Shown in pieces: positions 59,917-63,411 of a stretch of 64,000 nucleotides of DNA. This stretch comes from Spirochaetota bacterium. Its GTDB lineage: Bacteria > Spirochaetota > UBA4802 > UBA5368. The stretch lies in the NCBI GenBank assembly GCA_004297825.1, contig SCSX01000078.1, positions 1 through 64,000 of the forward strand. The letters are read 5' to 3'. Each line of letters starts with the position of its first letter. The stretch's first letter is position 1. The position numbers and the translations under genes were made by a program. Below the pieces are notes generated by a model. The model saw only the letters and a program-made list of their open reading frames with translations, searched no databases and was not told the origin of the DNA.

Positions 59917-61473
59917 CTACGCGCGCACGATGCCGGACACGCCCATGAGGTCCTGGGCGGTGAGCGCGAGTTCCTTCGAGGTGTCCGAGAGCTCGTGGGA
60001 ACCGAGCGCCATCTCCTGCGTGGTCATGTTAAGGCCGGCGATGCTCTTTGAAATCTCCTCGAGCGCGATCTTCTGCTCGTTCGTCGCGCCCACGATCTTG
60101 TTCGATTCGGCAAGCACCCCTTCGAGCGAGCCGCGAATGGCCTTGTTGAGCTCCAGGTCTTCCTTCGCCGAGTCCACCACCCGGTCTATCCGCGCGCCGA
60201 ATTCCGAAATATGCTGGATCATCCGGTTGAGCGATTCTATGAACGCCTCGAGCCGTGCGTAGGCCTTTCCAATCTCAACGTTACTCGCCTTGAACATTTC
60301 GTTGATCGATTTCACGTTGCTCGACGTGTTGTCCGCGAGCTTGCCGATCTCCTCGGCCACCACGGCGAACCCGCGCCCGTGATCGCCCGCGCGCGCGGCC
60401 TCGATCGCGGCGTTCAGGGAGAGCAGGTTGATCTGGTCCGATATGTCCTCGATGATGTTCACGGTATCCTGGACGCCCTGGAACTGCGCGCCGGCGCCGG
60501 ACATGCCCTGGAGGGCGCTCTGAATATCGGCCCTGGATTTTTCCACCATGCGGTTGAGCTCGTCACGGATGGAGAGCGCCTCGGCCATTTTCTCGCCCAC
60601 GGCTTTTACAATTCCATAAAGGGTGCCCATCTCGTCGGTGACCTTCTGCGTGAGGTCGACCTGCTGTTTCGCCATGGTGTAGACGCTTTCGCCGCTCGCG
60701 GTGATCTCTTCCACGCTGGAGGTGACCTCCTCGAGCGACGCGGCCTGCGACTGGGCGTTGCTGGAAAAGCTGTCGGTGGTCGAGGCCATCTGTTCGGTTG
60801 ACGAGGCGAGTTTGACCGCGACGCCGTTGGTCTGCTCCAGGATGTTTTTAATGTCCTCGCCCTGCCGCCGGCTCTCACCGAGCGCGTCCTGGATGATCTT
60901 GTGGGACTTTATGTTTACGGAGAGGATCTGGAGACAGACCCCCGAGGTCAGGATCGTGGCGATAAGCGAATCGGTCATGTTTTCCATGGCCTGCTCGGGG
61001 GAGAGAATCCCCGTGGATTTGAAGTAGAGATTATAGGCGACGATCGCGCCCAGGTTAAACAGCGCATAGGCCGAGACCGAGATGCGGTTGGTCACGCTTG
61101 TCGCCATTATGAGTATCGTAAAAATGTACACGATCGAGTTGATCGAGGAAACCAGGTCCTGTGTCGCGGTGGTCTGGAAAAGGATGAACCATATCCCCGC
61201 GGTCGCGGGGACCAGCATGCAGTGCGCCGCGACGTCGAGATGCCCCCGTTTGGCAAGCACCATGGTCGACATGAATACGACTTCGAGCACCAGGATCAGG
61301 CCTACCGAGGCGTTAAATCCTTTACCCTGAAGTATTCCAATCGCAAGGCCCAGCACGCCGAGCGCGAACATGATAACGATTGAAAGGGTAACGAGAAGCT
61401 TCGCCCGCTGCTGCTCGCGGTAGCTCGAATTTTCATACTTGGACAGGAAGAAGGCGTTGAATTCGGATCGCAT
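59917..61473 (-). CDS. Methyl-accepting chemotaxis protein with six-helix membrane sensor
   Basis: 518 residues. Residues 20-190 hold six hydrophobic helices with only short loops, so the sensor is the membrane domain itself. The signalling domain follows, with the hairpin tip NIIEDISDQINLLSLNAAIEAARAGDHGRGFAVVAEEIGKLADNT. No HAMP domain was seen. Such receptors sense membrane or intracellular conditions. ATG 61473 was chosen over ATG 61539. It ends 317 bases from uppP. Confidence 0.9.
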   Translation of the reverse strand: MRSEFNAFFLSKYENSSYREQQRAKLLVTLSIVIMFALGVLGLAIGILQGKGFNASVGLILVLEVVFMSTMVLAKRGHLDVAAHCMLVPATAGIWFILFQTTATQDLVSSINSIVYIFTILIMATSVTNRISVSAYALFNLGAIVAYNLYFKSTGILSPEQAMENMTDSLIATILTSGVCLQILSVNIKSHKIIQDALGESRRQGEDIKNILEQTNGVAVKLASSTEQMASTTDSFSSNAQSQAASLEEVTSSVEEITASGESVYTMAKQQVDLTQKVTDEMGTLYGIVKAVGEKMAEALSIRDELNRMVEKSRADIQSALQGMSGAGAQFQGVQDTVNIIEDISDQINLLSLNAAIEAARAGDHGRGFAVVAEEIGKLADNTSSNVKSINEMFKASNVEIGKAYARLEAFIESLNRMIQHISEFGARIDRVVDSAKEDLELNKAIRGSLEGVLAESNKIVGATNEQKIALEEISKSIAGLNMTTQEMALGSHELSDTSKELALTAQDLMGVSGIVRA

Positions 61474-61626
61474 GGGTGGTAACTCCTGGAATTCGGCGTG
61501 GAAACGCTCCGGTCTCCAGCCGGTGATGGACATAAGCATATCATGATTTTCGCGGTTCGCAAGTGTTTTATTGGCTCTGATCTTATCGGGGCGAGGGTTC
61601 CGTATTTTTTTTCGGGGGAAATGCGC

Positions 61627-62199
61627 TTACTTCATCCCGAGCGGCTCGCCCTTTTCGAGCCTGTCGACGATTTCGCGAAGGCGCCGCCTGCGGGTTTCGT
61701 CCTTTTTCGCGGAGAGCACCCATCGCAGGTAAAGCGCGCGTGTCGAGGGCGGCAGACCCTCGAAGGCGAGACGGGCGGGGGCCGATGCGCGGAGGGCGTC
61801 CATGATCCAACCCGGTATTTCAATCGGTACCGGTTCAGTTCCGGTGTCCGCTGATTCTGAAAGGTCGATTCCCGCGAGCGACTCCATGCCCGCGGGCGTC
61901 ATCCTTCCCTCCGCGATCATACGGCGCGCCCGCCTCCTGTTGGTTGCCGACCAGGCGCCCCCGGGCTTGCGGGGCGCGAACCTTTGGGCGTATGATTTCC
62001 CGTCTACGGTCCTGACGAGGTTGTCGATCCAGCCGAAACAGACCGCTTCCTCGACGGCCTCTTCGTAGCCCATCGAGGGAATCCCGGTGCGGGCCTTGTA
62101 GAACAGAACCCACACGAGCCTTTCGGACGAGTGGTTGAGCTCAAGCCATTCGCGCCACCGCTGCCGGTTCTCGAAAAAAATGGGATTGAAGGGGCTCAT
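61627..62199 (-). CDS. YdeI/OmpD-associated family protein
   Basis: 190 residues. FFENRQRWREWLELNHSSERLVWVLFYKARTGIPSMGYEEAVEEAVCFGWIDN is the family N-terminus, followed by RFAPRKPGGAWSATNRRRARRMIAEGRM and a C-terminal KDETRRRRLREIVDRL. Related proteins are described as bacteriocin- or peptide-resistance factors, but the activity is unknown. Start ATG 62199. Its stop lies 154 bases from the chemoreceptor start. Confidence 0.8.
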   Translation of the reverse strand: MSPFNPIFFENRQRWREWLELNHSSERLVWVLFYKARTGIPSMGYEEAVEEAVCFGWIDNLVRTVDGKSYAQRFAPRKPGGAWSATNRRRARRMIAEGRMTPAGMESLAGIDLSESADTGTEPVPIEIPGWIMDALRASAPARLAFEGLPPSTRALYLRWVLSAKKDETRRRRLREIVDRLEKGEPLGMK

Positions 62200-62336: not shown

Positions 62337-63104
62337 TTATGAGGAGCGCGGGGGAGGGTTTGCCATTTCCCCGTCGTCCTCCAGGTTTTCGAGCGCGGTC
62401 AGGACCTTTTCCTGCGCGGAAATGATATCGGAAATGTCGGGCGGAAAGTGGAGGAAGCTGATAAGGTCTTCAATGAGCAGGTCCTTCGCGCGCGGGGTAA
62501 GGCAGGCGCACATCCTTGAGATTACGGTCCCGCTCGCCCCGGAAAGCGCGACGATGAGCGCGTGCGTGTCGATCTCGTGGAGGGTTTTCATGATATCCTC
62601 GTTCGAGAGGTCCGCGATCGCGCGCTCGAGCAGCGCGGTGTCGTCCGATACCGGCGGGCGTCCCTCAAGGCGGGCGAGTATCTTCGAGGTAGTTCCCTCG
62701 TATTCCTCTTCGCACAGGGAGTCGATCGCGCCCCGGTAGGATTCGGCGAAGAAAACCGCGAGGAGGTCTTTCATGGAGCGCGGGATGGTGCCGGATTGGA
62801 CCATGAGCAGCCCTTCGAGGAGAATGCCGCGCTCGAGCAGCTCCCGGCCCCGGTATCCCTGGGATAGTATCTGCATCTCAAGGGCCTTGCGCACTGCCTC
62901 GGGATCGGTGCCGTTTACCACCAGATCGAGACCCATGCGGAGGAAGGGGTGACCGGCGTCCTCCAGGTCGTCTTCGAGCGCGAGCAGGCCTTCCCTGCGG
63001 GCCTTGAGTCCCATGTTCATGAGCCTGGGGATGAGACGCGCGCATTCCCGGCGCTCATCATCGGTGCAGGCGATCCGCTCGGCGAAATTCCAGTCGTAAA
63101 TCAT
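62337..63104 (-). CDS. MotA-linker/FliG-C-like protein
   Basis: 255 residues, soluble. Residues 31-80 (MGLKARREGLLALEDDLEDAG...FLRMGLDLVVNGTDPEAVRKALEMQI) match the cytoplasmic MotA segment; residues 160-220 (ERAIADLSNEDIMKTLHEIDTHALIVALSGASGTVISRMCACLTPRAKDLLIEDL) resemble the FliG C-terminal repeat that touches MotA. No membrane helices are present. A protein combining both halves of the stator-rotor contact could modulate the flagellar motor; this is an inference. Start ATG 63104 follows GGGGG. Confidence 0.65.
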   Translation of the reverse strand: MIYDWNFAERIACTDDERRECARLIPRLMNMGLKARREGLLALEDDLEDAGHPFLRMGLDLVVNGTDPEAVRKALEMQILSQGYRGRELLERGILLEGLLMVQSGTIPRSMKDLLAVFFAESYRGAIDSLCEEEYEGTTSKILARLEGRPPVSDDTALLERAIADLSNEDIMKTLHEIDTHALIVALSGASGTVISRMCACLTPRAKDLLIEDLISFLHFPPDISDIISAQEKVLTALENLEDDGEMANPPPRSS

Positions 63105-63411
63105 GGTTCCCCCTGGATGGCGCAACAGCGCGTCGGTTGACGGAGCGCCAGGCTATCGGCCCCGGGAATCGGCGTGTTAAATATGAACCGGAAGTCTTAT
63201 TAAAGCATGCGCGAGTTTTTTTACAGCACGCGTGCGTATCTGTCAATAAAAAAGACTCCGGACTGCTGCATATCTTATCGGCCCCCGGCCCTGAAAGAGT
63301 ATAAAATAATTACCGCTTGAATTTTCGGCGACCCGGCTTGTATTCTTCCCTTTCAGGCCGCGCGGCAGATCAATCCCGCGTGCTGCCTGCGGTTTTCACC
63401 ACGGAGGATAC
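63105..63411. other. Intergenic region with two CCGATA-family motifs
   Basis: TATCGGCCCC at 63154-63163 and TATCGGCCCCC at 63276-63286 lie in the divergent gap between the MotA/FliG-like gene and the SanA-like gene. No gene is visible. Confidence 0.5.

Follow-up and report, generated by a model that had tools for sequence, protein, structure and literature searches.

A soluble spirochaete protein predicted to join the torque domains of MotA and FliG

Results

To examine a possible fusion of flagellar motor parts, we analyzed a 64,000-nucleotide stretch of DNA (here called the window) from a Spirochaetota bacterium (GenBank assembly no. GCA_004297825.1; contig SCSX01000078.1, positions 1 to 64,000). 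A gene at 62337..63104 on the minus strand encodes a soluble protein of 255 aa that, judged from its sequence, joins the cytoplasmic torque domain of MotA to the C-terminal torque domain of FliG. The hybrid architecture is real, recurrent, made of known parts and, as far as we searched, undescribed: full-text searches of open-licence papers listed none that presents a MotA-FliG_C hybrid in its title or in the opening of its abstract.

Gene and domain architecture

The open reading frame is intact. Its ATG start at 63104 is common to a relative with 68% identity (L076, from a metagenome assembly of an "uncultured Spirochaetes bacterium"), and starting from a TTG at 63125 would lengthen the protein by 7 aa. 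The whole MotA-like part occupies about 62724-63068 and the FliG_C-like part 62364-62633. Residues 13-85 (62850..63068, minus strand) match the MotA loop between TM2 and TM3, the torque-generating interface (NF005997; E = 2.8e-16). Directly abutting this loop is the C-terminal cytoplasmic tail of MotA (residues 86-127; 62724..62849, minus strand), with TM3-TM4 missing. The linker that follows (residues 128-157; 62634..62723, minus strand) is the least conserved part of the protein, residues 121-157 being 54% identical to L076. The FliG C-terminal torque domain (residues 158-247; 62364..62633, minus strand) was assigned by the match of the structural model to FliG and by a PF01706 (FliG_C) match over residues 162-247 (E = 8.8e-11; 42.5 bits versus a cut-off of 23.3). 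FliG_C also scored above the Pfam cut-off in all 10 proteins tested, including the viral hybrid and the G077 piece described below.

Among PDB sequences (6ysf and 8ucs), residues 24-82 paired with MotA 80-138 and residues 86-127 with MotA 215-256. Both pieces together matched 6ysf with an E value of 3.5e-12; the second piece taken alone was weak (i-Evalue of 0.68). Because MotA 80-138 and then 215-256 are paired consecutively, TM3, the periplasmic turn, and TM4 appear to be cleanly skipped; TM1-TM2 are likewise absent. The same loop-to-tail join recurs in an alignment of 11 hybrids with the MotAs of E. coli and of the window genome. None of the 19-residue hydropathy windows of the protein reached 1.6, versus 22 in the MotA of the same genome and 25 in E. 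coli MotA. The two halves further matched the two mutually contacting chains of 8ucs, a structure of MotAB bound to FliG (8ucs_C, E = 4.3e-12; 8ucs_H, E = 5.3e-4). The initial annotation had described MotA-like and FliG-C-like segments, in mutual contact in the motor, within one protein free of membrane helices. This description was borne out by HMM, PDB-sequence, and residue-level evidence. Without a membrane helix, the hybrid cannot be a stator, and without a FliG_N or FliG_M match, it cannot take the normal place in the rotor.

Structure prediction had been suggested for each half and gave a divided answer. AlphaFold2, run on an alignment of four rows (the window protein, L076, and two FliG pieces from viral contigs), returned a mean pLDDT of 58. 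Most of the FliG half had a pLDDT of 77-88, falling to 61 at residues 211-220. In VIA-align, each of the top 14 rows matched residues 158-245 to a FliG C-terminal domain (Z scores of 11.4-13.8; rmsd of 1.0-1.8 A), the best superposition having a Z score of 13.8 and an rmsd of 1.0 A over 85 residues. The FliG fold of this half is confidently predicted, and the result that had been named as speaking against the hybrid, a model with neither fold, did not occur here. The MotA half was modelled without confidence (pLDDT of about 42), and its VIA match to MotA (Z scores of 4.4-4.9) was no better than that to unrelated helical proteins. Because of this low model confidence, the case for its fold is one of sequence likeness. 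The viral hybrid (L098), modelled alone, had a pLDDT of 37.8, and that model was set aside.

Interface residues and selection

Stator-rotor pairs in E. coli are given in an excerpt of PMC12505986 as MotA R90 with FliG D288-D289 and MotA E98 with FliG R281. Alignment with E. coli MotA places the counterparts of R90 and E98 at R36 and E44 of the window protein (residues 36-44; 62973..62999, minus strand); alignment with E. coli FliG places those of R281 and D288-D289 at R205 and E212-D213 (residues 205-213; 62466..62492, minus strand). Nine of the 11 hybrids, the window protein among them, retain the counterparts of R90, E98, and R281 and the acidic pair at 288-289; the remaining two (from genomes G080 and G373) have lost several of these residues. 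Two further residues of E. coli FliG, K264 and R297, which we take to be torque residues, have no like counterpart in the window protein (S and D instead). Both are kept in the paralog from the same genome, in G166, and in G189; G216 and G373 keep K264 alone. In comparisons with 21 FliGs, the identity of the window protein's FliG half did not exceed 30%.

Divergence of the window gene from L076 over 243 codons gave a dN of 0.21 and a dS of 1.09, which indicates a constrained protein. The values were 0.18 and 0.88 for the MotA half and 0.20 and 1.49 for the FliG half; purifying selection acts on both halves.

Relatives among Spirochaetota genomes

A profile of 7 hybrids was compared with 392 genomes of the phylum, and all counts from this census are lower bounds. 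Full-length hybrids occurred in at least 10 of the 392 genomes, and there are at least 11 carriers when G077, with pieces at contig ends, is counted. Among the matches listed, 10 spanned nearly the whole profile with E values of <1e-76 and came from 9 genomes (G000 twice, G158, G166, G216, G189, G100, G178, G220, and G080), and a weaker full-length match came from G373 (E = 5.2e-33). In G077, a MotA half runs to the end of one contig (L006) and a FliG half lies near the start of another (L086:3-713). These look like two ends of one gene and were counted as pieces. Ahead of the FliG half, in frame and at the contig start, L086:3-713 has a membrane-like stretch, which may reflect either an artefact of assembly or a genuine fusion.

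Another hybrid gene of the window genome, on contig C15 (L078:9682-10725), encodes 347 aa. The C-terminal FliG half of this second hybrid is near-canonical, sharing up to 69% identity with FliGs, and its FliG match (TIGR00207 positions 183-333) is longer than that of the window protein. A true MotA (C33), a true FliG (C50), and a FliG-like protein (C6) are encoded in the same genome. The gene for the diverged FliG-like protein (L037) is without the R281 and D288 counterparts and lies near a chemoreceptor gene (C6:8806-9246). The only true MotA found in this genome (L003:1246-2049) sits on a long branch (1.4 versus a median of ~0.15), an indication that the host's own motor may not be typical. 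In G080, three adjacent diverged MotA-like or hybrid genes (L082:7830-10234), all matching LIC10244_fam, are a local expansion.

The suggested check for co-occurrence with flagellar genes came out in favor of such a link: all 11 carriers have a true MotA (in G189 a partial match of 202 positions), and at least 9 of the 11 have a separate FliG among the matches listed, with G080 and G373 each having one further match. In a tree without E. coli MotA, the MotA halves of the 11 hybrids separated from 27 MotAs at 99/100; the split was not recovered once E. coli MotA was included (2 changes). The tree of FliG halves does not resolve a single origin of the hybrids (2 changes).

Gene neighborhood and promoter

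The hybrid is followed on the same strand by an OmdA/YdeI family gene (61627..62199, minus strand; PF13376, E = 6e-17) and then by a chemoreceptor-type (MCP signalling) gene (59917..61539, minus strand; PF00015, E = 1e-25), an order also seen in L076. Three independent loci have a hybrid with a chemoreceptor gene less than 0.8 kb away; the distance is <0.7 kb for the paralog L078 and <0.4 kb for the G189 copy. With 42 chemoreceptor matches in 4.89 Mb, we roughly estimate a chance of ~1.4% per locus of finding one within 0.8 kb. Eight of the 12 loci had no chemoreceptor gene within the flanks examined, some of which were short, and we treat the proximity as suggestive only. The window gene is outside flagellar operons, and its neighborhood is not conserved beyond the genus. 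A sigma-28-like promoter was considered and rejected. The best upstream sites in the window and L076 scored 10/12 at different places and were equalled in 7 and 14 of 300 shuffles; at the other 9 loci, two sites reached 10/12 (18 of 300 shuffles each) and seven reached 8 or 9, which is too weak.

Related genes on viral contigs

Searching viral contigs with four soluble MotA domains as queries returned three contigs, and a second scan found the identical three. One of them (L098; 4,076 bp) carries a terminase large subunit gene (PHROG E value of 4e-61), a portal gene (E = 1.1e-107), and then a hybrid of 246 aa (L098:2995-3735) that matches FliG (TIGR00207; E = 2.4e-19) and MotA (E = 9.6e-11). 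In a single comparison, it was 28% identical to the window protein over 253 columns (E = 2e-13), and by alignment, it keeps the pair residues. The other two encode a soluble MotA domain alone: one of 121 aa (L096:5001-5366) near primase, thymidine kinase, and homing endonuclease genes on a 57.5-kb viral contig (L095/L096) and one of 115 aa (L099:2977-3324) beside a phosphoesterase gene on a putative viral contig of 86.6 kb. Both stand-alone domains keep the KARREG..LALED motif. The three viral MotA domains grouped together (97/98) on long branches in a tree that omits the two long-branch hybrids of G080 and G373.

We dropped the idea that the window copy came from a phage or plasmid, as the window protein had no match in collections of either. 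INPHARED entry MT835480.1 (L101, labelled Bacteriophage sp.) was likewise set aside as a relative of the viral hybrid: it holds a full-length FliG, apparently in an ordinary bacterial flagellar operon. Full-length FliG genes were also seen on two contigs classed, putatively, as viral (L090:742-1980 on 329 kb and L091:547-1836 on 90 kb); in L090, the FliG gene is followed by an apparent FliM/FliN protein, from our reading of the open reading frame.

Discussion

Three roles had been put forward for the protein: a brake, a decoy, or an assembly factor. The first two agree best with the kept pair residues and with the presence of viral genes of like make-up; the third is the least favored. Our leading but tentative proposal, in which our confidence stops somewhat short of even, is that the hybrid competes for or bridges the stator-rotor interface from the cytosol, as a brake or clutch that would act like YcgR without being YcgR. 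We regard this step as plausible in view of the architecture, the lack of membrane helices, the kept pair residues, selection, the co-occurring motor parts, and the example of YcgR; the chemoreceptor genes close to hybrids at three loci also speak for it, suggestively. In this view, rotor FliG would be the docking site of its MotA half, the cytoplasmic domain of the stator that of its FliG half, or both contacts would form. By competing with or cross-bridging the stator-rotor contact, it could lower torque or leave stators disengaged. Control might be exerted through the amount of hybrid made or through an internal closed state in which the halves cover each other.

Several findings count against a brake. 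The K264 and R297 counterparts are lost, the FliG half is no more than 30% identical to FliGs, and several of the pair residues are lost in G080 and G373. The gene is outside the flagellar operon, its neighborhood is not conserved beyond the genus, carriers are patchy (at least 11 of 392 genomes, one of them with pieces only), 8 of 12 loci are without a chemoreceptor gene in the flanks examined, and the MotA half is poorly modelled.

A self-complementary switch working off the motor seems to us unlikely. Its two halves would bind each other, either inside one molecule or across molecules, to build a signalling scaffold that serves a partner other than the flagellum. In its favor, both complementary surfaces are on a single chain, the gene is found away from flagellar loci and in some cases next to chemoreceptor genes, and the three tandem diverged copies in one genome suggest a role beyond one motor site. 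However, all carriers examined have a true MotA, and the viral copies are more easily explained by action on a host motor. We consider it quite improbable that the hybrid instead regulates the availability of stator or rotor parts, binding free MotA or FliG during assembly as a chaperone or titrating factor and leaving working motors alone. A soluble copy of both binding surfaces, encoded apart from the operon, would suit that task, but most genomes with MotA or FliG matches are without a hybrid (full length in at least 10 of 392), and motor assembly therefore does not generally depend on it.

The viral genes raise the question of whether the architecture arose in phages that stop the host motor during infection, the chromosomal copies being captured and domesticated cargo. 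The position of the L098 hybrid, immediately behind terminase and portal genes, and the soluble MotA domains beside phage-type genes in L095/L096 and on L099 speak for such an origin. Against it, the three viral MotA domains form a group of their own on long branches, apart from the chromosomal hybrids, and no phage genes were present in the scanned selection of neighbors of chromosomal copies; we rate this origin as improbable, marginally more so than a role in assembly. A decaying fusion without present function, to which the loss of pair residues in some members (G080 and G373) could point, is very hard to reconcile with a dN/dS of about 0.2 across the whole gene and with open frames kept in distant genomes.

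Returning to the brake or clutch, we also entertain, more doubtfully, a wider class of cytosolic stator-rotor mimics. Its members would carry a membrane-free MotA torque surface, often together with a FliG surface, and would act as a brake or clutch in spirochaetes and as a motor-stopper in phages, perhaps in a self-inhibited form. If our inference is right, a soluble protein has been built from the two torque-making surfaces of the bacterial flagellar motor, and motor control would have a new form separate from PilZ proteins. The viral copies would then suggest that phages target the motor directly. The hybrid would also offer structural biologists a MotA torque domain that is already water-soluble, which they would otherwise have to engineer. 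For the LIC10244-type proteins of Leptospira, now annotated as "hypothetical," it supplies a concrete hypothesis.

Comparison with known families and systems

Judged by family profile, LIC10244_fam (NF047717; PerRA/PerRB upregulated, Leptospira) is the only named family near the hybrid; no account of its domain make-up turned up in the papers searched. It was the best single family across most of the window protein (E = 4e-16), with residues 9-201 on profile positions 8-205 of 252, spanning both halves. The score of 59.2 bits versus a cut-off of 475 means that the protein is not a member by the curated rule. Hybrids from other genomes match the profile too; it was matched in 5 of the 392 genomes, none of which reached the cut-off. 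LIC10244 itself is listed as a "hypothetical protein" with a value of 6.61 in a table excerpted from PMC8638967. For Leptospira interrogans, the excerpted text of PMC11800159 counts three FliGs and two MotAs, and the locus tags it gives for these do not include LIC10244.

The hybrid resembles MotA (NF005997; 6ysf and 8ucs) in the cytoplasmic torque domain with its R90 and E98 counterparts, and it differs in the absence of the four transmembrane helices, in the fusion to FliG_C, and in its score (59.3 bits versus a cut-off of 340). The likeness to FliG (TIGR00207 and PF01706) lies in the C-terminal torque domain and the R281 and D288-D289 counterparts; in contrast to FliG, the window protein is without FliG_N and FliG_M and covers only positions 243-326 of the 338 in TIGR00207 (26 bits versus 226.7). 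A functional parallel to our proposal is the YcgR/PilZ brake. YcgR binds MotA and FliG and slows the motor, according to excerpts of PMC11800159 and PMC12943098. Unlike YcgR, the hybrid has no PilZ match (Pfam, E values up to 10) and appears to be made instead from copies of two motor surfaces.
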